A stretch of 14,294 bases of DNA, taken from the NCBI GenBank assembly GCA_003990745.1, contig RBNI01004300.1, forward strand, positions 1-14,294. The letters are read 5' to 3'. Below, one piece after another: positions 102-13,829 of the stretch. The notes beneath the pieces were generated by a model. The model did not search any database, was not told where the DNA came from, and worked only from the letters and a program-made list of their open reading frames with translations. This stretch comes from Jimgerdemannia flammicorona. Taxonomy: Eukaryota; Mucoromycota; Endogonomycetes; Endogonales; Endogonaceae. The translations under genes and the position numbers were made by a program. How positions within the stretch are numbered: the stretch's first letter is position 1; every line of letters starts with the position of its first letter.

Positions 102-214
102 ATAGTCCTCAAACTTCTTATCTTTAACTGTCTTGTTATCTCTTAGATTGCTTACAAGGAAGTGTGTATATTGTACTGAGAAGACTGACTTTATTTCAGA
201 GGAAATGAGAGGGG

Positions 215-222
215 TATTTATA
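215..222 (-). promoter_or_regulatory. TATA box, left LTR copy
   Basis: On the minus strand this reads TATAAATA, identical to 12528-12535 in the other LTR. An AATAAA follows downstream on the minus strand, the usual order TATA then polyadenylation signal across U3/R. It is the best candidate for the core promoter of the genomic transcript in this LTR. No transcript evidence is available. Confidence 0.5.
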
Positions 223-318
223 TAAAATATAATTCAATGGTTGCTAAGATATAAAGCTAAATATAAATTCCAATAACTAAAACTACTAAGTTCTAGGATT
301 GGTACTGATAGTTGTACA

Positions 319-458
319 GGTTCAGGATGCTAGTATAATTCAGTATCACATCAGAATACTGGTGCTGGTATTATTTAGTGTTACATCAAAATACCAGTAC
401 TGGAATAATTCTGCATCACCTCAGAATATCAGTGCTGATATTATCTAGTGTAACAAAG
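319..458 (-). repeat. Four 35-bp tandem units with palindromic cores (left LTR copy)
   Basis: Four units of exactly 35 bp start at 319, 354, 389 and 424. Their cores resemble ACCAGTGCTGGT or CCAGTACTGG, which are inverted repeats, and each unit continues into a CAGTGT-like segment and a TCA end. This copy is more decayed than the one at 12632-12771. On the minus strand the array lies directly after the LTR reading frame stop and about 100 bp upstream of the TATA box at 215-222, where enhancers usually lie in an LTR. Confidence 0.8.
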
Positions 459-461
459 GAC

Positions 462-1123
462 TTAGAGCAGAATGTTCAAGACCATGGGGGCTTCATCCTC
501 ATCATCAGAGGTCAGGATATCTTCAAAGAAGATGAGGTCTATAAATATTTCGTCAAGATCACATAGGTTGCATGGGATGATATCATTGCCGATGACATCA
601 TCACATTCGGTGGTAGCAGGAACAAGGAGATCTGGAGCTCTCCAGTCTATGAGATTCTCTTCCACAAAATAAGGAACAAATATGGGGTCTTGGAGAGGTC
701 TAACCTGGATGCTTGGGCCTTGGAATACTGAGATCAATCCTTACAGAAATTGATCTGGGTTGTTCTGGAGGATGGGGTGCCAGAAGTCTTCTACTTCATC
801 ACTATTGAGGGTGATAGTGGACTGGGCTTCTATAGCCACTCTGGCTTCTAGTGCATTGATATGGCAGGATGACAGGTCTCTGAAATCTGAGACTTTAACA
901 TATTCCAAGTTGGGGATCAACCATAGTATATATCTGAAGATCTGATGGATCTTTTTAGCTATCCTTACCTTGTATATATTTATGAGAGTAGTATCTTGTA
1001 GCTCTTGAGGGCTGGCCTGTGGGAACTCTCAGCAGAGAAGATTTCATATTTCATACTTCTGCCATATTTGGAGATATTTGATAGCAATGGTGATCCTGGT
1101 TTCCATTTTATGGTAGTAGAGGA
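462..1123 (-). pseudogene. LTR-encoded ORF, C-terminal about 220 codons (left copy, cut by the copia insertion)
   Basis: This is the downstream part of a 270-codon minus-strand frame whose first 50 codons lie at 6213-6363, beyond the nested element. The product is not recognised. The C-terminal third is acidic (a DDEDEAP stretch just before the end), and the middle contains the segments EDFWHPIL and FVPYFVEENLIDW. Stops in this copy include TGA at 1029-1031 and TAA at 741-743. The latter is CAA (Gln) in the right copy. Conversely, codons at 642-644 (TGG) and 705-707 (CAG) are sense here and TAG in the right copy. The reciprocal pattern argues for an ancestral open frame. The final TAA is at 462-464. 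Confidence 0.7.
1119..1123. repeat. Left target-site duplication of the copia insertion
   Basis: GAGGA here corresponds to GAGAA at 6208-6212, one transition apart. The uninterrupted site survives once as GAGGA at 13432-13436 in the other LTR, followed by TATAGTG just as at 6213. A 5-bp duplication is normal for Ty1/copia integrases. Confidence 0.85.
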
Positions 1124-1276
1124 TATTGAAATATATAGGTTACAACTCGATATATGGTGGCGCAGCCTTCCTTGACTACGTCATCATGTAAACGTCACTA
1201 ATGGGGATGCATAAAAGCACGTAAGAATTAGCAATAAACACTTTACTTCTCTCTCCACAGTCCACATTCCACAACA
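1124..1276 (+). repeat. Copia 5' LTR (153 bp)
   Basis: It begins TATTGAAATAT and ends CCACAACA. The terminal CAACA would pair with TGTTG as an inverted terminal repeat, but both LTRs have TATTG. Seven positions differ from the right LTR, all transitions. Candidate signals are ATAAAAG at 1211-1217 (TATA-like), AATAAA at 1233-1238 and a pyrimidine-rich stretch after it. Confidence 0.93.
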
Positions 1277-1291
1277 GGTTATGAGCCCTGC
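1277..1291 (+). promoter_or_regulatory. Copia primer binding site (initiator tRNA-Met anticodon arm)
   Basis: GGTTATGAGCCCTGC starts at the first base after the LTR. It is the exact complement of the GCAGGGCUCAUAACC anticodon stem-loop of yeast-type initiator tRNA-Met, including the CAU anticodon. Drosophila copia likewise primes from an internal cut of this tRNA, not from its 3' CCA end. The short leader from here to 1341 has no other feature. Confidence 0.8.
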
Positions 1292-1341
1292 TTAATGGCT
1301 ATAATACACTCTCTTACATATACGCTACACTACGCTATACA

Positions 1342-2202
1342 ATGGCTACTAGTTCAAGCAGTGCTAGCAGCGCGCCGCCAAGTTCTGGTAATACAAATAC
1401 AGCCAGAATGGGTTTCACTTCCATGACGACGAACATTCCGGCAGTGGCGCCAACGTCAATAGTAAAGAGGAAGATTCCTGTCTTTGACGGTAAGGACTAT
1501 GCCATATGGGCATATCATATGAAGAATCTCCTTGAAGAATGTGGTTTGGAGGACTACTGGAAGCCACAGGTGCAAGTAATGACATACGATGCCACGAAAG
1601 ATCACAAAGCGCTAAGGGAGATTACGTTCACTCTTTCGAACATGCAAATGAAGCTGGTAATCAATGCTATGATGGCAAATGAAGCCTGGGAGATTTTACG
1701 CAATCACCATCAACAGGCATCTGCATCAAACAGATTCCACTTAAAGGCACAACTATTCAATCTTCGAATTAAGTCCAAGGAGAGCATCCAGGACTATGCC
1801 AATCGAGTTGATGAGCTGGCGAATCAAGTGAATTCCCTTACATCTATGCTGGCGGACACCATCAAGGATGAAGACAAGGTCCTGGCTCTTATACGAGGCC
1901 TTCCCGAAGCGTACAATATGGTTGTTGCTGCTATGAGGGAATCCGGCAGATTATCAGATTATAAGCATGTTATCACAAGCCTTTTAAATGAGGAAACGAG
2001 GCTAGGCAGCAACAACGCCAACAAGGAATACGATGAGAAAGCATTCTATGGTGGAGCACGTGGACGAGGCAAAGGTAAGCCGAACAAAGGTCGAGGCCAG
2101 CAACGCGAGAAATTTGATAGTAAATGCTTTTACTGTAATAAGCGTGGACATCGTGAGCAGGACTATAACTGCAAGAAGAAGGAAAAGGGTGACCAACAGT
2201 AA
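1342..2202 (+). CDS. Copia Gag polyprotein (286 aa)
   Basis: This is the capsid and nucleocapsid protein that forms the virus-like particle and packages the element RNA. After a Ser/Ala-rich N terminus (residues 1-25), the segment IPVFDGKDYAIWAYHM (about 45-60) is the typical start of a copia Gag core. A conserved helical core follows to about residue 230. A Gly/Arg/Lys-rich stretch then leads to a zinc knuckle at 2125-2172. The knuckle is odd: C-X2-C-X4-H-X6-C, with two residues more than the usual X4 before the last Cys. I chose the ATG at 1342 because it is the first in frame and lies 65 bp after the LTR. The frame ends at TAA 2200-2202, but pol continues in the same frame, so the stop is either a CAA-to-TAA mutation or a readthrough point. 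This is the only long intact frame in the element. Confidence 0.9.
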   Translation: MATSSSSASSAPPSSGNTNTARMGFTSMTTNIPAVAPTSIVKRKIPVFDGKDYAIWAYHMKNLLEECGLEDYWKPQVQVMTYDATKDHKALREITFTLSNMQMKLVINAMMANEAWEILRNHHQQASASNRFHLKAQLFNLRIKSKESIQDYANRVDELANQVNSLTSMLADTIKDEDKVLALIRGLPEAYNMVVAAMRESGRLSDYKHVITSLLNEETRLGSNNANKEYDEKAFYGGARGRGKGKPNKGRGQQREKFDSKCFYCNKRGHREQDYNCKKKEKGDQQ

Positions 2203-3057
2203 GGACAATGGCAGGCAAACATGGTGGACGTCAACAATGAGAACAGCAGTGGCGGAGGTCTATTCTTCGCAGAAGCAGCGACCTATCCATATGTAGAAAC
2301 CATTGAAATAGGAGGAAATTCGGAACCAACTGCCAGTTCCACCAATGCCAGTTGTAGATGCAATTCCACCAGTTCGACATCTACAAATCCTGGTCAACAA
2401 AACACTTTTCAGACAGCAAAAAATGGTGACATCAATGTCGGCGCCAGCGCAAATGTAAGCTATATGCCGAACAGCACTTATGCATGCAGTGAAGAGGTCT
2501 GGCTCATGGATTCGGGTGCAACACAGCATATGATGGCTCACTGGGAGTGGTTCTCTATGTACGAGAAGTTCGAGCATCCCATACCTATCAAGCTAGGTGA
2601 TAATAACGTCATTTACACTCAAGAGAAAGGCAACATAGGCATACATCTACATGGAAACGTTGATGAACCTTCAGGCACCTTCGTAGACATACTATACATT
2701 CCAGATATAGGCAAGAACCTCTTCTCGATAGGCCAGATGATGGCTTGTGGGGACAGAGGAGTAAATATACGCCCGAACGGTGTAACAGTAATCAATCTGA
2801 AGAACAATAAGGAGTTAATGTATGCATTGAGAAAGGGGAATCTATATGCAATCAACAGCATGCCGAGTGGCACTACATCTGCATATTCTGCAACTACGAC
2901 AGGAGAGGATTTCTGGCGTATAATGCATGAATGCTTAGGATATATTGGTAAAACAAGCCTGGAATGGATGATAAGAAGCAAGTCTGTATATGGTTTACCA
3001 GACTATATGCCACCAGATTTCTTTTGTGATAGATGCACGGCAAACAAGGCTTCCTGA
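2203..3057 (+). pseudogene. Copia pol: aspartic protease and integrase zinc-binding domain
   Basis: In the gag frame, the retropepsin active site is seen as LMDSGATQHM (about 2500-2530) with hydrophobic flanks. This enzyme would cleave the Gag-Pol precursor. The segment LYIPDIGKNLFSIGQM is a conserved feature after the copia protease. The GAG-pre-integrase/HHCC domain follows at about 2905-3054. Its expected WHxRLGH appears as MHECLGY, so the second zinc-binding His has become Tyr and the Arg has become Cys, each a single C-to-T change. The C-X2-C pair (FCDRC) is intact. The frame ends at TGA 3055-3057, where CGA (Arg) fits the family. An ATG at 2221 is available, but expression as a Gag-Pol fusion is the family norm. 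Confidence 0.88.
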
Positions 3058-4067
3058 CAACCTTTTCAGGAACGAATGAAGTGAGCGGCCGGCATTCTCG
3101 ATTTGATTCATACGGATATTTGTGGCCCCATGCGAATGGCATCACACTCTGGAAAGAAGTATTTTATTATATTCATTGATGATTATACACGCAAAGTCCA
3201 CGTATATTTCATTGCGGGGAAAAACGAGGTATTCGACAAATTCCAGGAATTCAAAGCAGCCATGGAGAACGAGACGGGACGTAGAATACAAACCCTATAC
3301 TCAGATAACGGTAAAGAATACATCAATAAAGGTTTCAGACACTTCTTGAAGAAGAACAGTATACAGCACTCTACGATAGTCCCTTATACACCTCAGCAAA
3401 ATGGCGTGGCGGAACGATTCAATCGAATGGTAGTGGAAATGGCTAGAACAATGATGAATACGGTTGGCTTGCCAAAGTCCTTTTGGGTGGAAGCAGTGAA
3501 TACAGCAGCATATATTCGAAATCATTGTTTCTCTTGAGCTCTAAGCAAGGATTCTGGCAAGCAATCCAGGAACAACAGCAATCTTACCCCTGAGGAATTA
3601 TGGAATGGATCCAAGTCTGACATTTCACACTTACACATATTCAGAAGTGAGGCATATGTTCTGGACAAAGGTGGCAACCGAGGCAAGTTCGAACCTAAGG
3701 CAGATAAGCATATATTCCTTAGATATGATGGAGCGGGATACAGACTTTGGAACCCGCAGAAACGACGTATAATCATTTCACACGATGTACAGTTCAAAGA
3801 GATTAAGCAGGAAATTTACATGGAAATTCCTATCTCAAATCCGACAGTGAATTCGACAGTACAGCCAGTGACATCTATGCCAACTGCAAAGGCTAGCGGA
3901 ATAACATCTACACCCGGAATGACACCAAAGACATCCTTGGGACCTACACCAGTGAAAATACAACTCATTCAAATGGAAATGAAGTTGCAAAAACCAAGGA
4001 TAATGGAAATTATGGACGAGGATGATGAAGAGGATACCTTCCAAAGGGTAAGAAGAAGCACAAATCT
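3058..4067 (+). pseudogene. Copia pol: integrase catalytic core and C-terminal region
   Basis: The DDE integrase core inserts element cDNA into host DNA. The catalytic residues are all present: Asp in HTDICGPM (codon 3115-3117), Asp in YSDNGKEY (3304-3306) and Glu in NGVAERFNR (3412-3414). Exactly 35 residues separate the last two. The C-terminal segment GYRLWNPQKRRIIISHDVQF (about 3739-3798) is the copia-specific motif before the RT. A low-complexity Thr/Pro/Ser linker follows (about 3820-3960), then an acidic patch. In-frame stops are TGA at 3079-3081 and 3535-3537, both readable as former CGA. The reading frame shifts by -1 at about 4060-4080. Confidence 0.9.
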
Positions 4068-5050
4068 GGGATGGATAATGAAGTCCAAGCGGATCTGGGA
4101 AATTACTGGAACCCACCCAAGTCATCTTGTCGCAAACAACATCACGTGAACTATGCCTGCGAATGCACTTACATAGCAACAACTGGTGAGCCAGCACACT
4201 ATAACAAAGCCATTTACTCAAATGATAAGAAGGAGTGGGGAAAGGCTATGGACGAGGAGTATAGTTCGCTCATCGAAAACCACACTTGGGATCTAATAAG
4301 CCTTCCAGCAGAGTGACAAGCTATAGGATCGAAGTGGGTCTACAAGATCAAGCACAAGGCTAACGGCAACGTAGAACGGTATAAGGCTCAATTTGTAGCA
4401 AAGGGGTACTCACAAGGCTATGGCGTAGACTACGATGAGACATTTTCCCCAGTATTTAAGTTGACTTCGCTTAGAATACTTCTTGCGATCGGAGCCAAGT
4501 ACGACTATGAAATACACCAAATGGACATAAAGACAGCATTCTTGAATGGTGACATAGACACGGAGTTATACGTACGACAACCACAAGGATACGAACTATA
4601 CGACAATGACAGAAACGAGCTCATATATAAATTATGCAAAGGGCTCTATGGAATCAAGCAAGCAGCAAGGTTGTAGAATTGAAAGATCGATGGATATCTC
4701 CTAGACAATGGATTCAAGCATTGTGAAGCCGATCCATGCATATACACCCGACATACATCCTCAGGAATGGTATACCTGGGAATTTGGGTTGACGATATTA
4801 TTTTAGTCAGAATGGTAAGTGAAATCAACGACGTAAAGGCTACACTATGCCAGGAATTCAAAATGACGGACTTAGGTGAAGCGTCCTATCTCCTTGGAAT
4901 ATCGATTACACGTAACAGGCGCGAGCATGCTATATACCTAACGCAAGCCACATACATTCAAAATATTCTTGAGCGATTCGGGATGAGTGAATGCAAACCA
5001 GTCGGGACACCTATGGAAACATTCGTGAAACTAAAGAAGTCTGACACTAT
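4068..5050 (+). pseudogene. Copia pol: reverse transcriptase (RVT_2 type)
   Basis: It copies element RNA into DNA. Recognisable segments are MDEEYSSLIENHTWDL, GSKWVYKIK, AQFVAKGYSQGYGVDYDETF, IHQMDIKTAFLNGD (first catalytic Asp) and the WVDD box (Asp codons 4791-4796). The family usually has YVDD; here Tyr is Trp. Segment LGISITRN ends the thumb side. Stops are TGA 4314-4316 (CGA expected), TAG 4674-4676 (TGG expected, since copia elements have Trp after this KQAARL segment) and TGA 4680-4682. The frame is the third plus frame, shifted -1 from integrase. Confidence 0.9.
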
Positions 5051-5766
5051 GCCCGAGGGAAACGATATCCCCTATCGACAAGCCGTGGGATCTCTCATGT
5101 ATCTTATGCAAGGGACAAGACCTAATATCTCTTTTGCAGTAAACAAAGCAGTGCAGTATTCTTCATGCTACGACAATAGCCATTGGACAGCAATCAAGCG
5201 AATTTTCAGGTACATCAAAGGAACTGTAGACTATATGCTCTGTTTGGGCGGTGATAATGGGCAAAGTGGGAGTACTATACGCCTATTTGGTTCTTGTGAT
5301 GCCGATTGGGCTGGCAACTTAGATGACAGAAGGTCTATGACTGGATACATCTTTAAAGTAAACAACAGAGCCATTTCGTGGCAAATGCATAAGCAATCTT
5401 CAGTGGCAACATCCTCTATGCAAGCGGAATATCAAGTGTTGTCAACGGCAACAAAGGAGGCTATCTGGCTTTGAGAACTGTTAAAGGAGCTGGGATATGA
5501 GCAACGGCACTCTATGCTACTCCAGCAAGATAACCAATCAACGATTGCTTTGGCGAAGAACCCTATACATCACCCAGAACGAAACACATTGATATACAGC
5601 ATCATTTCATATATGAATGCGTGGAAAATGACACTATACACCTTAAATACACCCCAACAGAATATATGACGGCGGATTCGTTGACTAAAGCCCTTCCAAA
5701 GGCAAAGTTTACTTATGCGTAAAGGGAATGGGAGTTACGGTAGCAAAAACTATATGCCAGCAATAA
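5051..5766 (+). pseudogene. Copia pol: RNase H and C-terminal end
   Basis: RNase H removes the RNA template strand during reverse transcription. The conserved segments are CDADWAGNLDDRRSMTGY (catalytic Asp), then SSMQAEYQ in place of the usual SSTEAEY, then QDNQSTIALAKNP. TGA at 5472-5474 sits where CGA (Arg) fits. At about 5579 the frame shifts by -1 again and continues as TKHIDIQHHFIYE and ADSLTKALPKAKF to TAA 5720-5722. A short continuation in another frame (KGMGV, to TAA 5764-5766) resembles the usual copia C terminus, so a third shift near 5719 is likely. The second shift could reflect loss of one copy of a repeated 4-base unit around GAACGAA. Confidence 0.85.
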
Positions 5767-6054
5767 AAACAGCAACAATAGTGAGCTATACGGAAGTATT
5801 TCGGTGGATCAATTTCGAAATCTATTTCATATTCAATGCATTTCTTTTCCCTATCGCTACATTGCAGATTTCTACCAACATTGCTCATCTACAAATGTTC
5901 ACATCTCTATTTTTCAACCTATTTTTTGAGCTTTAAGCAGGCAATTTGAATGTTTTTCGGTTTCTAGATAGCGGTCTGAACACTACAGCGAGATTTGCAG
6001 TGGTTATAGCTTAGTATTGCAGTTTGGGAATTTACATATCTCGTTGAGCAGGAG
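5767..6054 (+). other. Copia 3' untranslated stretch and weak polypurine tract
   Basis: About 290 bp are rich in A and T, with no conserved protein motif. A T-rich frame at 5715-5936 has no family resemblance and is not called. The last bases before the LTR, GAGCAGGAG (6046-6054), are purine-rich and in the right place to prime plus-strand DNA, though the tract is short and contains a C. Confidence 0.6.
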
Positions 6055-6207
6055 TATTGAAATATGTAGGTTACAACTCGATATATGGTGGCGCAGCCTT
6101 CCTTGACTATGTCATCATGTAAACGTCACTAATGGAGATGCGTAAAAGCGCATAAGAATTAGCAATAAACACTTTACTTCTCTCTCTACAGTCCACATTC
6201 CACAACA
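6055..6207 (+). repeat. Copia 3' LTR (153 bp)
   Basis: Same length and ends as the left LTR, differing at seven sites, all transitions. Three are C/T or G/A changes at sites where one copy keeps CpG alone, and two more make the adjacent GCAC/GCGC pair. The TATA-like ATAAAAG of the left LTR is GTAAAAG here. Confidence 0.93.
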
Positions 6208-6212
6208 GAGAA
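6208..6212. repeat. Right target-site duplication of the copia insertion
   Basis: GAGAA, against GAGGA at 1119-1123 and at the uninterrupted site 13432-13436; a single G-to-A change explains the mismatch. Gypsy LTR sequence resumes at 6213. Confidence 0.8.
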
Positions 6213-6363
6213 TATAGTGATAAGGATTACTAATACTCAGGTTGACACTAGGAGTTCTTCTTGAGTGAGTCCTCATAGCTCTTCTGATGTCTTGAAATAT
6301 TTTTTCTTCAACTGAGATATCTTGGTGGTTCCTTGATCTTGAGGTTTGGCAGGTGGCAGACAT
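6213..6363 (-). pseudogene. LTR-encoded ORF, N-terminal 50 codons (left copy)
   Basis: The ATG is at 6361-6363, matching the ATG at 13585-13587 of the other LTR. This copy reads CQTSRSRNHQDISVEE near its start, where the right copy has a stop at the Gln codon. The N terminus is basic and polar, with Arg-rich segments. The frame runs unbroken into the copia LTR at 6212, which fuses it to unrelated codons. The remainder is at 462-1123. No known domain is recognised. Confidence 0.7.
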
Positions 6364-6442
6364 TTCAATTATGGTAAGTCTTTGGGCTATTTTGGGATTG
6401 GTGGGTCTTATTGGTTGCTGCTACTGTGGTTTCTTGATCCTT

Positions 6443-6450
6443 CTTTTATA
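6443..6450 (-). promoter_or_regulatory. Upstream TATA box, left LTR copy
   Basis: Minus-strand TATAAAAG, identical at 13667-13674. It lies about 80 bp upstream of the LTR frame's ATG at 6363, a normal promoter-to-start distance in fungi. It may therefore serve the LTR gene, while the downstream TATA box serves the genomic RNA. Confidence 0.45.
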
Positions 6451-6605
6451 TTCCTCAAGATACCCATACTGTGGTTACAATGACTCACAGTTGGTCATTA
6501 TTGCTCATCTCATATGCTGTATAATCTTCTTGTACTCTGATCTGGTGGCTTGCAAGGAAAGACTGTCTCCTGTGCTGATATCATCATTCTGGAGTCACCA
6601 TTACA

Positions 6606-6979: not shown

Positions 6980-8150
6980 TCATAGTATATACTTCTTGAG
7001 TCTATTCCTGTGTACCATAGTAGGCAGTATAGTCTCTGAGATTTTTCTAAGCCAGAAGGTAGTTCCCTTGATATCTTGTACATAGAAGAGTCCTTCCCAT
7101 TTAGGCTCCAGTTATTGTAACTATGAGGCTTTTACCATATTTCGATACAGTAGAACCTTTTCTCCAATTTGGATGGGTTCTAGGACCTTGTGATTCTTTT
7201 CTACATCCTTCTTTGTCAGCACTTGTGACTTGATGATGTAATCTTCAGCCTTCTTCCTGATTTGGTGTAGTCTCCAGATTTCTGCATCAACCCATCTCCA
7301 AGTTAGGTCTAGATTTGTAGCTGAGGTTCTATCAGAATCTTCTTCTCTGAAGAGCAGCTCTCTTGGGGTAAAGTGTGTGCTCTGTGACCATATATCTCAT
7401 AGGACAGAGAGGTCAGTTGGGAGATAGTTATCCCAATTCTCATATGTCTCTGAGATCTTCGCTAGGATGTTCTTGAGGGTCTTGTTAGTTCTTTCTGTCT
7501 GTCCATTTCCTTGAGGGTGGTATGTGGTGGTCTTGATGTGCTGGATCTTATATTTCTGATATATTATATCATAGAATCCATTAATGAATTCTGTGCTTCA
7601 GTCTGTTGTGATTTGCTTTGGTGTCTTGTAGTGGCAGATGATTTCTTGGTGCAGGAAGTCAGCTATAGAGAGGGCATTGGCTTCTTGTAATACTCCTGCC
7701 TCTATCTATTTGGTGAAGAGATCTACAATAACTATAATATAGTGGTTTCCTGATAGTATTACCAGTAGTGGCCCAATGATATCCATTGAAATGTGGTGGA
7801 AGGGAATAGGCTCAATTCTTGATGACCCAGGTGCCTGGTCTTACTGATCTTGTTTCTGTTTTTGGCACTTGTCATACCCTTTGACAAATTGGCACAGGTC
7901 TTCTTCTATCTTGGGTCACTACATGGTTCTTCTTGCCTTATCATATGTATTGGTTCCTCCTAGGTGTCCTTGCTTATATACTTCCTTTATTACTTAATAT
8001 TTCTAGTATATTACTAGCTTTCCTCCTTTTCTGAGTGTAGTGTTATCTAGTTCAAACTGTTTTTAAGTCCAGTTGATAATGGTGATTGTCCAGAGTTTAA
8101 GGTGGTTGGGCATCTTCCACTGTCTAAGGTAGCTGATTAATCCATAGTAT
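6980..8150 (-). pseudogene. Gypsy integrase
   Basis: It would integrate the cDNA. The zinc-binding domain is near 7890-7975: the segment YKQGHLGG has Tyr where the first zinc-binding His is expected, and KGYDKCQKQ keeps the second Cys. Catalytic residues are Asp in SMDIIGPL (7781-7783), Asp in TTD (7601-7603) followed by a TGA for Arg in STEF, and Glu in GNGQTER (7493-7495). Exactly 35 residues lie between the last two. A GPY/F-like segment reads EPKWEGLFYV (Pro replaced by Leu) near the end. No chromodomain follows. Many stops interrupt the frame, which differs from the RT frame; the shift lies at about 8160-8230. The last stop is TGA 6980-6982. Confidence 0.88.
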
Positions 8151-8870
8151 AGCTCCTTATTCATGTTGAATAGTCTTGATGGAAGTGTTTTGGAGTGTCC
8201 TTGAGAGTACATCAATATTGGTATTGGTCTTTTCTGAGTAGTGCTTAACAGTACAGTTATACTCTTGTAGCCTATAGATCTATCTGGCATATATTCCTTT
8301 GGGGTTCAGAGTGTGGAATAGCCAGGCAAGAGCAGAATGATCTGTTTGAATGGTGAAGTGTTTCCTGGCTAGGTAGTAGTGGAACTTATCTACTGCCCAG
8401 ACTACTGCCAAGCATTCAAGCTTGCATGACTCATAGTTCTGTTCTGCTCCATGGGTACCTCAGCTTGCATAGGAGATGACATATTCATGTCCATCTTTCT
8501 TCTAAGCTAGGACTGCTCCAAGTTCTATAGTACTTGTATCTGTCTGCAGGATGAATTCTAGGTTCCAATCTGGTCTTCTGAGGATAGGTGCTTGGGTCAA
8601 CCTAGTCTTGAGTTCATTGAAGGTTTCTTGGCACTCCTTAGTCCATTTGAATTTTGTTTCCTTCTTCAGTAGCTCATAGATAGGTACTGCAATGTTAGAG
8701 TATCCTTTGATGAACCTTCTGTAGTAGCTGGCCAGTCCAAGGAAAGTATGGACTTCTGTGGTTGTTCTGGGTCTCAGGTAGGCTACAATAGCCTCAATCT
8801 TCATGGGGTCTGTGTGGATTCTGGTCTGGTTGATGAGATGTCCTAGGTAGGTGATTTCCTGAGCTACAAA
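8151..8870 (-). pseudogene. Gypsy RNase H with connecting region
   Basis: The connection is seen as TTEVHTFLGLASYYRRFIKGY (about 8690-8760 on the minus strand), a hallmark of Ty3/gypsy Pol between RT and RNase H. RNase H follows: Asp in LQTDTS, Glu in KLECLAVVWAVDKF, and Asp in IQTDHSALAWLF are all present. TAG at 8502-8504 reads as a former CAG (Gln) in the usual LAQKK context, and several more stops follow. After NTNIDVLSR, an approximate match to the end motif ADALSR, the frame becomes unclear and integrase resumes one frame off. Confidence 0.87.
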
Positions 8871-9480
8871 CTTGCATTTCTTGGGCTTAATGTAGAGGCC
8901 ATGCTCCTTGAGCTTCTTGAGGGCTAGCTATATATAATTGACATATTCCCATACAGTGTTGCTGAAGATGATCACATCATCAACATAGACAAAGAGCCAT
9001 TTTCCAATCTCATTGTTGAAGACTCTGTTCATCATTCACTGGAAACTTACTGGGGCATTGCACATTCTAAATGGTATTCACAGATAGATATAGGTGGCAT
9101 CAGGTGTGATGAAGGCTGATTTCTCACTGACATCTTGAGTGAGATCAATCTGATGGAAGTCTGAGAACAGATCCAAGGTGGTTTAGTATTTGGCTTCACT
9201 TCCAAAGATAGTAAGAATTTCTTAAATATTTGGCAAGGGCTGCCTATCCTTCTTGGTGATGGCATTGAGCTTCCTATAGTCAATACAGAGTCTTGGTGCA
9301 AACTCTCCAGACTTGCTTCCTTTCTTCAGGGCAAGGACAATAGGTGAGGCCCAGGGGCTGATAGCCTGCTTGATGATTCTAGCTTCATCCATTTCCTTAA
9401 GTTCTGCTTGCAGCAATTCTCTGTAGGTAGGTGGTATGGGTCTGGCTTTCTGGTAGATGGGCTTGGTATCACTAGTGTCA
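8871..9480 (-). pseudogene. Gypsy reverse transcriptase
   Basis: It begins near YRELLQAELKEMDEARII. The core shows SPWASPIVLALKKG, PRLCIDYRKLNAIT (motif with basic and Asp residues), then TTLDLFSDFHQI (first catalytic Asp region, Gly to Asp in SGFHQI), CNAPVSFQ, and an intact FVYVDDVIIFS box at about 8975-9000. LGHLINQTRIHTDP follows. Stops are TAA 9222-9224 (CAA expected), TAA 9183-9185 and further TGA and TAG codons, including a TGA after SFQ where CGA is the family residue. The YVDD box is intact, but the enzyme could not be made as one chain. Confidence 0.93.
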
Positions 9481-9551: not shown

Positions 9552-10103
9552 GTACAGGATCTTGAGAAATTATTCCTCCAGGGGAAAGTTTTCTCTAATA
9601 GTATATGTGTGCTTGTTCTGGTCCTTGTCTTTCTTGTGCTCAAGTTTGGTAATCTTGGTGACAGCATAGGCTCCTCTTCCAGTAGATCCAAAGTCTTGTT
9701 CTCCTCTCATAGTCTTGATGAGTTCGATGGCTTCTATGATCTTGGGCTTCTTGACTTTGTGAATCAGTATCTGGCCAATCCTGTCATACTTCTTAACTTC
9801 AAATGGGGTGGTGGGATTGTGATTCCTGACTATGATGAAGATCTCACCAGTGTAATCAGAGTCAATTACTTCTCCTTCAACTAAGATTTCACTTTTGGCC
9901 AGACTGCTCCTGGTCTTGATAATTCCAGCATAGTTTTCTGGCAGCTTGACTCCAATTCCAGTGCCAAGTAGAGTGGTGGTCTGTGGTTCAAGGGTAGCAT
10001 CTTGAATGCTGGCAAGGTCTATTCCTATGGCTCCTTCAGTCTTGTATTCTGGGATCTTGGCTTTGGGGTGAAACTTCTTAACCTTGAGGGTGATGTCTGA
10101 TTC
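9552..10103 (-). pseudogene. dUTPase domain in gypsy Pol
   Basis: All five motifs of the trimeric dUTPase family are present in order in one uninterrupted stretch of 184 codons: motif 1 GAIGIDLAS (10008-10034), motif 2 RSSLA (9897-9911), motif 3 VIDSDYTG (9846-9869) with the catalytic Asp, motif 4 DRIGQ (9771-9785), and motif 5 RGEQDFGSTG (9678-9707) with the Phe that stacks on uracil. From about 10100 to 9678 it is about 141 residues, the usual length. The family hydrolyses dUTP to dUMP and pyrophosphate, keeping uracil out of new DNA. Departures from consensus are Ile for Tyr in motif 1, Glu for Gly before VID in motif 3, and QD before the Phe of motif 5. It lies between protease and RT in the RT frame. 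Bounding stops are TAA 10104-10106 and TAA 9549-9551. The element as a whole is broken, so I call it a pseudogene although this domain is unbroken. Confidence 0.92.
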
Positions 10104-10424
10104 TTATTCCTCCTCATTGTTACTGTCAGCTTGAAGCTCTGGGGGCTGGTCATCTTCTTCAGCTTTCCTTTTTGCTTCAGCAGCTTCTTGCTCATATTTC
10201 TGTTGGTGGATTTTCCTGACTTCACTGATACAAGACCAGTAGTCATTCAGGTGTTCAGAGCAGTACATCCTAGTACTGTGGAGGCATCTTCCTTGAGGAG
10301 CATAGCCATCAATGATCTTGTTGTACCACTGCTTATCTGTGAGCTTGGGTGTCTTGTTCTTGTTCTTGTTCACCAAGTGTATGAAGACCTCTGTGTCCTC
10401 TTCATCTCCTTCCTCCATATCTAG
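10104..10424 (-). pseudogene. Charged linker with possible zinc-binding cluster, between protease and dUTPase
   Basis: This is an open stretch of 106 codons in the pol frame; the ATG at 10422-10424 is probably internal. It begins acidic (EEGDEEDTE), has a Lys/Asn repeat (NKNKNK), then WYNKIIDGY and a Cys/His cluster RCLHSTRMYCSEH (10257-10295), spaced C-X-H-X5-C-X2-H. It ends in a Glu/Lys/Ala-rich segment likely to form a coiled coil (about residues 65-90). I recognise no family. The cluster could bind zinc, or it could be chance in a spacer. Confidence 0.55.
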
Positions 10425-10429
10425 TAGAA

Positions 10430-10850
10430 CTCCTTTATGGACATTGATAGAGACTCATACCTTTCTCCCTCTATAGTTGATCTGCATCTTCTAAGCATTG
10501 AGGTCAATGATGGCCTTGACCTTGTGAAGCCATTGGTTACCAATAAGGATATCATAGTTGGTAGTGCTTGTAACAATCATGTCTACTGAGATGGTAGCTC
10601 CTCCTATCTTGATGGAGACTTCTCAGATTTTGCTAAAGGGGGTAGCTCGTGTACTATCTGCTGTAACATAGACCATCTTGGTGGACTCTTCAATGTCCCA
10701 GCCTAGGCAGTCAATTGCCTTCTTGCTTATGAGGCATCCTCCAGCACTGATATCAATGATGACATCAAAGATACAGTCTTCGATCTGACATGGGGTATAG
10801 GCTGATATCTTGCACTGGTCTTCGGATTCCTGAGTTCTCAGATTCCTCCT
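10430..10850 (-). pseudogene. Gypsy retropepsin-type protease
   Basis: The protease would process Gag-Pol. The active site region reads DVIIDISAGGCLIS (about 10720-10765). The expected Asp-Thr-Gly-Ala is Asp-Ile-Ser-Ala here, explained by one C-to-T and one G-to-A change. Later conserved segments are SIKIGGATISVDMIV and NYDILIGNQWLHKVKAIIDLN, equivalent to the YDxLLGRxWL block of the family. Stops are TGA 10623-10625, TAG 10491-10493 and TGA 10455-10457. The frame is +1 relative to gag; the change falls between about 10884 and 10800. Confidence 0.82.
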
Positions 10851-12240
10851 GTGTATTGTGAGCTTCTACAATCTTGTACTCTTAATTCTTGGCAGTAGTT
10901 GCAAGTCTTACTCTCAACTGCTGTCTGAAGACAGGGACTTCAGCTAGTTGTCCAAAAGTAGCATTGACCTTCTGTTCCTTGAGATCCTTGTAGATATCAT
11001 ACTGGTGGATCTTGGTCTTGTGCAGCTTCTGTTCCTTCTTGCTCTCACTTTCTCCTGAGACTGGAGTAGTGCCTTCTATGATTTGGCAAGCAGCTTCATC
11101 TAACTCCATGTCTTGATTAATCTCCTCAGGTTGAGTCTTGCTTTGAATAGTAACAGCTGGAGTCTTCTTTGGTCTTCTAACTGGCTTACTGTTGCTCTTC
11201 TTATTATAGAGCTTGGACTGGGTTCTGGTACCTTCAGTAGCAGAGTAGAATTCAAGCTCCTCATAGTATTCTTCATCATCAGTGTCACCAATCTCCTTGA
11301 TGACTACTGCATTGGTTTGTTCTCTGATTCTGCTAGCATTGCTTGGTTGGGCTTTACATCTTATTTTGATCATACAACTCTTTGTATAGTGGCCTTCTTC
11401 TCTACATCTGAAGCATATGATATGGCATTCTTCTGTAGCAGCTACAAATCTCTGCACTGGTCTCCTGTTGGTGCTTCAGACTTCTCTAACAATATCTTTA
11501 AGGTTTACAGACATCTCAGCAAACTACTTGGTAAGTTCTTTCACTGGGTCAGCTTTGACTGCCTTGGGGGTAAGTGAGGTTGGTTATCTGTTTATAACTG
11601 TGACAGGTATGATACTAGTTGGCTTTGATGGCTCCATCTTGATACCAGTTATTTTCTCTATTGAGTGTTCAGCAGGGTATCTGGCAGTCCAATATCTCTA
11701 TGCAAAGACCACTTTCTGATCAAGGGTCAGTACAGCTAAGATAGACCAGATTTCTAAAGCAATTTCAGAGTAAACTCTCTTGAGGAATGTTGAATCTGCT
11801 ATTTGTTCCTTGAGGCAGTCATCATAGCCAGCCAAGACAATCAAGTGACAGATTTGGGTATAGAATGAGTTGAGATCTTCACTAAGTCTCTGGCAGATAG
11901 TATTGAGTTGATCCTTGAGAGCTTGCTTGATATCTTCAGTATAGTATGTTGTTCTGAGGAAGGCCTTCATGTTGGCAAGTTTGGCTGTATCAGTATCAGC
12001 AATAGTGGCTGTATTGAACTTGTCTCTGGTAGGTCCTCTGAGGCTGACTGATAGAAGGGCCAATTGTGCATCCACACCAAGGACTTGTATGGTGGCAAAT
12101 TGTTCAAAGTCTTCAATGAAGGTCAGGATTGACTCTTCAGTAGTATATCCATAGAATGTGAGGAGATGTATTTCTATCTTGTCTTGAATTCTTGTAGGGG
12201 TGACTCTTGTAGTCAGGTAGTTGTTGTGGGGATTGTTCAT
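10851..12240 (-). pseudogene. Gypsy Gag, with downstream region leading into protease
   Basis: The capsid part starts at ATG 12238-12240, 36 bp after the primer site. The Ty3/gypsy Gag core is suggested by segments such as TFYGYTTEESILTFIEDFEQF and GPTRDKFNTA (residues about 28-75). A canonical zinc knuckle C-X2-C-X4-H-X4-C lies at 11374-11415 (CFRCREEGHYTKSC). After it come an acidic, Lys/Ser-rich segment and KVNATFGQLAEVPVFRQQL, which resembles the pre-protease segment of gypsy elements. In-frame stops are TAG 11698-11700 and TAG 11524-11526 (both former TGG), TAA 11584-11586 and TAA 10882-10884 (former CAA), and TGA 11476-11478 (former CGA). Confidence 0.88.
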
Positions 12241-12276
12241 TTTTCAGCTTGAAAGTGAGGGATTTGTCTTAAATCA

Positions 12277-12293: not shown

Positions 12294-12502
12294 AGTTGTC
12301 ATGTAGTGGTCACTGAGTCCTTCAAATATACCAGATTCTCTTCAAGGTATATCTCTTAGACTAACTCAAGTTTGTTATAAGCAAGTTCTTATTGGAGTGC
12401 CTTCCTAAGATCTTATAGTCCTCAAACTTCTTATCTTTAACTGTCTTGTTATCTCTTAGATTGCTTGCAAGGAAGTGTATATATTGTACTGAGAAGACTG
12501 AC

Positions 12503-12508
12503 TTTATT
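12503..12508 (-). terminator. Polyadenylation signal in gypsy LTR
   Basis: AATAAA on the minus strand, 20 bases downstream of the TATA box at 12528-12535; the left copy has the same at 190-195. The order TATA, AATAAA, U5 suits a short R region. Confidence 0.45.
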
Positions 12509-12527
12509 TCAGAGGAAATAAGAGGAG

Positions 12528-12535
12528 TATTTATA
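12528..12535 (-). promoter_or_regulatory. Downstream TATA box, right LTR
   Basis: TATAAATA on the minus strand, identical in the left LTR at 215-222 although neighbouring bases differ. It is the likely core promoter for the full-length RNA, about 100 bp after the palindrome array. Confidence 0.5.
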
Positions 12536-12631
12536 CAAAATATAATTCAATAGTTGCTAAGATATAAAGCTAAATATAAATTCCAATAACTAAAACTACT
12601 AAGTTCCAGAGTCGGTACTGATGGTTGTACA

Positions 12632-12771
12632 GGTTCAGGATGCTGGTATAATTCAGTGTCATATCAGAATACCAGTGCTGGTATTATTCAGTGTTATATC
12701 AAAATATTAATACTGGAACAATTCTGCATCACCTCAGAATGCCAGTGCTGGCATTATCCAGTATAACAAAG
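12632..12771 (-). repeat. Four 35-bp tandem units with palindromic cores (right LTR)
   Basis: Unit starts are 12632, 12667, 12702 and 12737. Unit 2 holds the perfect 16-base palindrome-like ATACCAGTGCTGGTAT, and unit 4 holds GCCAGTGCTGGC. Unit 3 is decayed, and unit 1 keeps only one arm. Units share the tail ATTCAGTGT and an ending TCA. The array starts 3 bp after the LTR frame's stop codon (minus strand) and lies upstream of the TATA box, which suggests repeated protein-binding sites. Confidence 0.85.
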
Positions 12772-12774
12772 GAC

Positions 12775-13587
12775 TTAGAGCAGAATGTTCAAGACCATGG
12801 GGGCTTCATCCTTATTATCAGAGGTCAGAATATCTTCAAAGGAGATGAGGTCTGCAAACATTTCATCAAGATTGTATAGGTTACATGGGATGATATCATC
12901 ACTGATGACATCATCATATTTGGTAGCAGTGGGAACAAGGAGATCTGGAGCTCTCTAGTCTATAAGGTTCTCTTCCACAAAATAAGGAACAAATGTGAGG
13001 TCTTGGGGAGGTCTAACCTAGATGCTTGGGCCTTAGAATACTGAGATCAATCCTTGCAGGAATTGGTCTGGGTTGTCCTGGAGGATGGGGTGCCAGAAGT
13101 CTTCTACTTCATCACTATTGAGGGTGATAGTGGACTGGGCTTCTGTAGCCACCCTGGCTTCTAGTGCATTGATATAGCAGGATGACAGGTCTCTGAAATC
13201 TGAGACTCTAACATATTCCAAGTTAGAGATTGACCATAGTGTATACCTGAAGATCTGATGGATCTTTTTAGCTGTCCTTATCTCGCATATATCTATGAAA
13301 GTGGTATCTTATAGCTCTTGAGGGCTGGCCTGTGGGAACTCTTAGCAGAGAAGGTTTCCTATTTTGTACTCCTGCCACATTTGGAGGCATTTGGTAGCAA
13401 TGGTGATCCTGATTTCCATTTCATGGCAGTAGAGGATATAGTGATAAGGATCACCAGTACTCAGGTTGACACTAGGAGTCCTTCTTAAGTGGGTCCTTAT
13501 AGCTCTTCTGATGTCTTGGAATATCCTTTTTTCAATTGAGATGTCTTGGTGGTTCCTTGATCTTGAGGTTTAGCAGGCAGCAGGCAT
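12775..13587 (-). pseudogene. LTR-encoded ORF, 270 codons (right copy, complete span)
   Basis: From ATG 13585-13587 to TAA 12775-12777 the frame is in phase throughout, with no indel against the left copy. Stops in this copy are TAA 13570-13572 (CAA in the left copy), TAA 13342-13344 (TGA in the left), TAA 13033-13035 (CAA in the left), TAG 13018-13020 (CAG in the left) and TAG 12955-12957 (TGG in the left). So four of five stops here are sense in the left copy. The predicted protein has a basic N-terminal third (SRSRNHQD, FQDIRRAIRTH), a middle with KKIHQIFRYTLW and VSDFRDLSSC, and an acidic C terminus. No signal peptide, membrane segment or known domain is recognised. The TATA box lies about 80 bp upstream. 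The codon-82 stop is shared by both copies and could be a former CGA or a real end that splits the frame. Confidence 0.72.
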
Positions 13588-13666
13588 TTCATTTGTGGTA
13601 AGTCTTTGGGCTATTTTGGGATTGGTGGGTCTTATTGGTTACTACTACTGTAGTTCCTTGATCCTT

Positions 13667-13674
13667 CTTTTATA
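13667..13674 (-). promoter_or_regulatory. Upstream TATA box, right LTR
   Basis: TATAAAAG on the minus strand, about 155 bp into the LTR and 80 bp before the LTR frame's ATG. It is conserved in the left copy at 6443-6450. Confidence 0.45.
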
Positions 13675-13829
13675 TTCCTCAAGATACCCATACTGTGGTT
13701 GTAATGACTCACAGTTGGTCATCATTTCTCATCTTGTATACTATATAATCTTCTTATACTCTGATCTGATGGCTTGTAAGGAAAGACTATATCCTGTGCT
13801 GATGTCATCATTCTGGGGTCACTGTTACA

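Follow-up and report, generated by a model that had tools for sequence, protein, structure and literature searches.

A dUTPase between the protease (PR) and the reverse transcriptase (RT) has been described before. For Postia placenta, the available part of the published account gives the order protease-dUTPase-RT for the element PosPlaTy3-5 and reports that the position of the dUTPase varies among the families of this one genome, being N-terminal, C-terminal, or between PR and RT, for which independent acquisition was suggested; elements with a dUTPase from Phanerochaete and Tuber (Tmt1) are cited there as well (PMC2864245). In the bdelloid rotifer elements Juno, Vesta, and TelKA, dut lies between PR and RT, and the accessible text says the same of basidiomycetes (PMC5408684). 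In the portions available to us, a dUTPase is also mentioned for fungal chromoviruses (PMC2774666), and PF00692 is enriched alongside retroviral families in Entomophthora muscae (PMC11105155). The first-pass annotation of the DNA analyzed here had stated that known retroelement dUTPases all sit elsewhere; even the available parts of these papers contradict this, for PosPlaTy3-5 (PMC2864245) and for Juno, Vesta, and TelKA (PMC5408684). The idea of this order as unknown is hereby corrected: the order is already known, and the element described below is a further member.

We analyzed a window of 14,294 nucleotides from Jimgerdemannia flammicorona. We are confident that the feature under study is the dUTPase domain of a high-copy Ty3/gypsy Pol with the order gag-protease-dUTPase-RT-RNase H-integrase, in which the integrase is weakly seen; that this Pol belongs to an RT lineage with the dUTPase N-terminal to RT in all sampled members; that the domain has a putative role in clearing dUTP near RT; and that the copy in the window is probably dead. 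The features of the window are the following:

12415-13829, minus strand: gypsy 5' LTR of roughly 1.4 kb, beginning TGTAA on the minus strand (self-BLAST and pair alignment).
11698-12243, minus strand: first part of a gag-like open stretch, 181 aa, a stop-to-stop frame assigned to gag by position only; no Pfam match.
10882-11475, minus strand: gag-like open stretch bearing a zinc knuckle of the CCHC type (zf-CCHC E=0.0054; at 17.2 bits, under the cut-off of 20.8).
10494-10805, minus strand: aspartic protease in two pieces (self-built protease profile, E 2.6e-13 and 8.4e-14).
10104-10454, minus strand: protease-dUTPase linker, Cys/His-rich and then charged (open frame, similar in plus-strand sister loci); no Pfam match.
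9570-10103, minus strand: dUTPase open frame of 177 codons, with the domain proper at 9678-10061 (PF00692 E=1.2e-29).
8832-9320, minus strand: reverse transcriptase in four pieces (self-built RT profile, E 8e-10 to 1e-8).
8505-8645, minus strand: start of the RNase H domain (PF17919 E=8.7e-14, residues 95-141 of frame 8502-8927).
7457-7549, minus strand: integrase core fragment at the expected place, a weak match (rve_3 E=0.0012, 19 bits, under the cut-off of 26.5).
6207-6605, minus strand: first part of the 3' LTR, with the purine-rich AGGAGGAAGA before it (self-BLAST and sequence).
1124-6208, plus strand: nested Ty1/copia element, inserted into the 3' LTR of the gypsy element and having short LTRs of about 155 bp and matches to Retrotran_gag_2, rve, and RVT_2.
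102-1126, minus strand: second part of the 3' LTR (self-BLAST).

The claim that the dUTPase lies between the protease and the RT of a gypsy Pol holds for this locus: the three domains follow one another on the minus strand in one frame, which is shared by the open reading frames ending at 10865, 10454, 10103, 9503, and 8927 (protease, linker, dUTPase, and RT/RNase H). If this pol frame is counted as 0, the gag-like stretch at 10882-11475 is in frame 2 and the integrase piece in the third frame. Membership in Ty3/gypsy is indicated by the LTR pair (90-91%) and by an RVT_1-type RT followed by RNase H, the former seen in the sister copy L041 and the latter also in the window. In self-BLAST, the two parts of the 3' LTR are 91.0% (102-1126) and 89.7% (6207-6605) identical to the 5' LTR; mapped onto it, they overlap by nine bases. 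No clear target-site duplication of the gypsy element was seen at the LTR boundaries. The LTRs of the nested Ty1/copia element (1120-1277 and 6050-6208) are 95% identical by self-BLAST, and its RVT_2 match is spread over two open stretches. In the linker of the gypsy element and its sister copies, a conserved Cys/His cluster is followed by a charged stretch.

The identity of the domain, proposed in the first-pass annotation, is borne out by profile, sequence, and fold matches. First, PF00692 matches residues 14-142 of the 177 in the minus-strand frame 9570-10103 with 103.2 bits against a cut-off of 22, a dCTP deaminase-like Pfam model matches the same frame more weakly (2.5e-11), and a self-built dUTPase profile recovers 9678-10061 with E=1.6e-46. 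Second, a PDB sequence search with the window domain returned 75 distinct sequences at E<=0.001 (best 3.9e-23), and nearly all of the 60 matches shown are named dUTPase. Third, a structure model built from an 11-row alignment, with a mean pLDDT of 60 and values below 50 for residues 21-24 and 119-177, matched dUTPases in a Foldseek search of the PDB: 48 of the 50 rows listed are titled dUTPase, the other two being chains of 6h4c, and the best E is 6.6e-11. A chance match as the source of the dUTPase signal is excluded.

The Asp in motif 3 and the Phe in motif 5 of dUTPases have catalytic roles. All five motif strings reported earlier are present as written in the frame 9570-10103; the window's family has the five motifs with both catalytic residues, and the window copy retains the Asp and the Phe. 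Across the aligned rows, the motif 3 Asp is kept in 33 of 33, and the FGS of motif 5 in the window and in all 26 other element rows; exceptions elsewhere in the motifs are P0016, with Lys for the motif 2 Arg, and P0017, with Asn for the motif 1 Asp. In the window copy, Glu replaces Gly in motif 3 and Asp replaces Gly in motif 5, both in near-invariant columns. The resulting GEVID prompted the idea of a family-wide loss of the motif 3 glycine, which was rejected since most sister copies retain it; the exceptions among them have Arg (L006, L028, and L029) or Glu (L026). The protease site reads DISAG in the window versus DTGAK in the sister copy L016. Because two near-invariant glycines are replaced and the protease site is changed, we infer that the enzyme of the window copy, an old, heavily mutated relic, is probably dead.

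With the window domain as the query, a search of the genome assembly (134.8 Mb, 7754 contigs) gave at least 150 matches at 86-100% identity. Sister copies show the order without interruption: L016 has the protease at 189-262 and then the dUTPase at 430-558 of a single open frame, L022 joins protease, dUTPase, and RT in one frame of 640 aa, and L041 has the dUTPase at 197-325, an RVT_1-type RT at 443-605, and then RT_RNaseH in a single open frame. Copies without the domain at this place, which the first-pass annotation had named as refuting its reading, were sought among the 30 best of 150 scored RT matches, and the reading was not refuted. Four of these loci are cut by a contig end and were left out of the count; the remaining 26, all with at least 824 nt upstream and one being the query's own locus, carry a dUTPase upstream of RT in 26 of 26 cases, nearly the whole domain in 25 (three of them in two pieces) and in L067 as a partial domain covering residues 83-187 of the 187-residue query. 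The dUTPase between protease and RT is, therefore, a family trait of a high-copy gypsy element. The window copy has breaks on either side, as would suit a host dUTPase gene or pseudogene that had inserted by chance into a single old gypsy element; this origin is refuted by the at least 150 family copies and the 26 of 26 RT-anchored loci, the 12 public proteins in the RT clade described below also speak against it, and we regard it as next to impossible.

Elements bearing a dUTPase are abundant in this genome, searches with PF00692 and with yeast Dut1 likewise giving at least 150 matches each, the latter at 39-46% identity; the unscored loose candidates (5391 for PF00692 and 11005 for RVT_1) are not copy counts. 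Alongside the window's family (family A), the genome contains no fewer than three others (B, C, and D) with the order dUTPase-protease-RT. In family C, motif 4 reads GFCIAQ for GDRIAQ in L031 and L039, and the matches of L037 and L040 show this reading too. The remaining motifs are mostly intact; a change of activity is possible. Five loci from the Dut1 search (L043-L047) all have a protease downstream, and four have an RT downstream. No host dUTPase gene stands out among the Dut1 matches listed, where introns could hide one. A degenerate DNA pattern for dUTPase gave 18 matches, as many as the backward control; three short fetches from this search contain one decayed dUTPase (L080) and, by eye, two stretches without one. 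L080 (G000:C483:27380-28000) is a very decayed further dUTPase that looks, by eye, unlike families A to D.

Beyond this genome, a Pol search scored 7984 candidates, of which 2992 passed the E-value threshold and the best 120 were listed; domain order was scanned in the 16 dUTPase-bearing proteins among these 120 and in five further proteins. A 37-row RT tree, which included 12 of 14 chosen dUTPase-free proteins (P0009 and P0058 were lost to a length filter) together with P0027 and P0029, places three copies of the window family and 11 public proteins in a clade of 14 rows with support 100/99. A quick RT tree of 127 rows, for which fetched proteins were taken if their RT match spanned at least about 90 residues (12 of 132 dropped), gives a clade of 15 rows, three family copies and 12 public proteins, with an SH-aLRT of 97; the clade was identified with P0049, a distant row chosen arbitrarily, as the root. 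Every row of this clade has a dUTPase before RT, and no member is dUTPase-free. One member, P0008, is 91% identical to the window family.

The first-pass annotation had held that a clade of elements sharing the position would support a lineage-specific capture. An RT clade with the dUTPase before RT is there, but the protease N-terminal to the dUTPase is visible in only six of the 12 public proteins (P0008, P0010, P0011, P0013, P0021, and P0022). It was not found in P0015, P0024, and P0026, whose sequences begin close to or within the dUTPase, or in P0016, P0017, and P0028 despite 217-426 residues there. P0023, P0035, and P0082 also have protease-dUTPase-RT, yet fall outside the RT clade. The clade-level pattern, an RT lineage with the dUTPase always before RT in the sampled rows, is a small addition to the known order; in the literature covered, which was partial and included few subscription papers, we recognized no publication describing this clade. 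Elsewhere in the RT tree, P0018 (named Tanacetum coccineum) and P0025 stand among dUTPase-protease-RT elements with no dUTPase match of their own; loss, truncation, or contamination are possible reasons.

How the dUTPase reached this position was addressed with trees. On the RT tree, a single clade of all dUTPase-bearing RTs is rejected (p=6e-10) and one of all rows labeled protease-dUTPase-RT is marginally rejected (p=0.040), p values that are weakened by the groups having been named after the trees were seen; the label was given to P0015, P0016, P0017, P0024, P0026, and P0028 by RT kinship, their protease being unseen. Because the single clade is rejected, repeated placement of the domain is favored. 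The fewest changes on the RT tree, counted without P0129, are five for the three order states and four for presence. The dUTPase tree, from 130 columns, is poorly resolved, with 11 of 30 inner branches open; family A and nine further members of the RT clade do not form one group in the best tree, but a tree that forces them together is not rejected (p=0.49). Within the lineage, RT distances agree with dUTPase distances (Mantel r=0.50, p=0.0018, n=10), as they do across the 16 rows with both domains (r=0.55, p=0.0002). Trees and distances would fit a history in which the lineage gained its dUTPase once and then inherited it, with the domain placed separately in other lineages, although they are not proof.

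The earlier suggestion of a separate capture thus fits the RT tree but has an alternative, namely, that an element dUTPase was relocated from before the protease to after it with no fresh capture. In favor of relocation, the genome that holds family A also holds three dUTPase-protease-RT families, and the spacing between motifs 2 and 3 is 17 residues in families A and C and in P0103, a dUTPase-protease-RT protein, versus 18 in yeast, B, and D. Relocation nevertheless sits poorly with the rejection of a single clade for the A, B, C, and D dUTPases (p=0.003) and with that of the single clade of dUTPase-bearing RTs, in both of which the group was named after the tree was seen, and we consider it doubtful, though worth keeping in mind. 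We hold a stronger version of the capture to be rather improbable, in which protease-dUTPase-RT would mark one old gypsy lineage that gained its dUTPase once and for which the domain became obligatory, while other lineages in the genome gained it before the protease or moved it there. If this were true, so many dUTPase elements in one genome would suggest that the host is chronically short of dUTPase or actively restricts cDNA by way of uracil. With an RT lineage whose sampled rows all have the dUTPase before RT beside dUTPase-protease-RT families in one genome, the gain, move, and loss of a module can be followed.

The domain was also noted earlier to be free of stops beside stop-rich neighbors, perhaps by chance. 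The contrast is real: stops occupy 3 of 3563 dUTPase codons (26 loci) against 38 of 6629 in RT (30 loci) and 24 of 3054 in the linker (25 loci) of the RT-anchored copies, whose choice by RT score favors copies with few stops and low dN in RT. Codon content accounts for most of the contrast, because few dUTPase codons are stop-prone; in L041, 4 of 141 are one C>T or G>A step away from a stop, versus 17 of 221 in RT and 16 of 189 in the protease tail and linker. Selection inferred from stop counts alone was rejected for this reason. Of 1424 aligned positions, 133 differ between the two gypsy LTRs of the window, 129 of these being transitions and 4 transversions. Sorted by C-bearing context, the transitions number 84 CpA, 30 CpC, 9 CpT, and 5 CpG, for site counts of 407, 257, 435, and 10, and C/T (71) and G/A (57) differences are similar in number, their direction being unpolarized. 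We take this pattern, with its strong CpA preference and few remaining CpG, to resemble repeat-induced point mutation.

Such a bias matters for the reading of substitution ratios. Among RT-anchored copies, NG86 dN/dS is 0.242 for the dUTPase (24 copies), 0.188 for RT (30), 0.255 for RNase H (27), and 0.192 for the linker (4); with all loci together, it is 0.210 for the dUTPase (49 copies) and 0.237 for RT (47), the use of high-scoring copies biasing these within-family comparisons to well-kept ones. Ratios below 1 were rejected as proof of selection, since neutral transition-only simulations alone give 0.43-0.56 for the dUTPase and 0.37-0.51 for RT, and the 5% quantile of neutral pair ratios under the dUTPase transition models is 0.24-0.27. 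The signal of constraint on the dUTPase is modest once mutation bias is modeled and, at modest power, the domain seems to have been roughly as constrained as its neighbors during the period when the family was active.

All 13 key residues are kept in 17 of 24 RT-anchored dUTPase copies; within the family, the retention of key motif residues does not significantly exceed that of randomly drawn residue sets (P=0.146). This last result is what would be expected if the domain were kept as a structural or regulatory spacer, serving folding, RT assembly, or protease processing with catalysis no longer needed. The GFCIAQ of family C points the same way, and one paper, going by its title, reportedly concerns a dUTPase-related lentiviral protein without activity (PMC4261571). 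Across lineages that are 36-47% identical to the family (P0008 aside), however, the five motifs are mostly kept, including the motif 3 Asp and, in all element rows, FGS, and we judge a mere spacer to be unlikely.

For a catalytic dUTPase, the likeliest role here would be to clear dUTP near RT, by analogy with retroviral dUTPases (PMC4531489). In the available text of that source, the retroviral enzyme is important chiefly in nondividing cells poor in cellular dUTPase, and G-to-A changes increase when it is lost. For the window family, we infer activity, packaging, and benefit along the same lines. The domain would be made together with RT, could be cut out by the element's protease or remain fused, and would be carried in the particle, where it may split dUTP to dUMP and pyrophosphate near RT. 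The result would be cDNA made in dUTPase-poor cells without uptake of uracil.

Retroelement dUTPases occupy several places relative to their neighbors. The betaretroviral dUTPase precedes the protease, and that of nonprimate lentiviruses lies in Pol between RNase H and integrase. Betaretroviruses share with the window family a dUTPase within a retroelement polyprotein, and families B, C, and D resemble the betaretroviral order; however, the betaretroviral enzyme is described as a trans-frame protein of the gag and pro frames (PMC4531489, available part), whereas that of the window family follows the protease. The ERV-L/ERV3 dUTPase lies within Pol, as in the window family, but that of ERV3 is downstream of integrase in the accessible account (PMC4299795). 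A C-terminal chromodomain after integrase, the mark of chromoviruses, is a further point of comparison with fungal gypsy elements: in the stretch searched for it, 7121-7396, there was no Pfam match, the C-terminal end of the element being badly decayed. Closer in order are Juno, Vesta, and TelKA, set beside the window family by description only; the available text presents them as rotifer-specific lineages with an ORF3 (PMC5408684). PosPlaTy3-5, likewise compared by its published description in the part available, is alike in being a Ty3/gypsy Pol with the dUTPase between protease and RT (PMC2864245).
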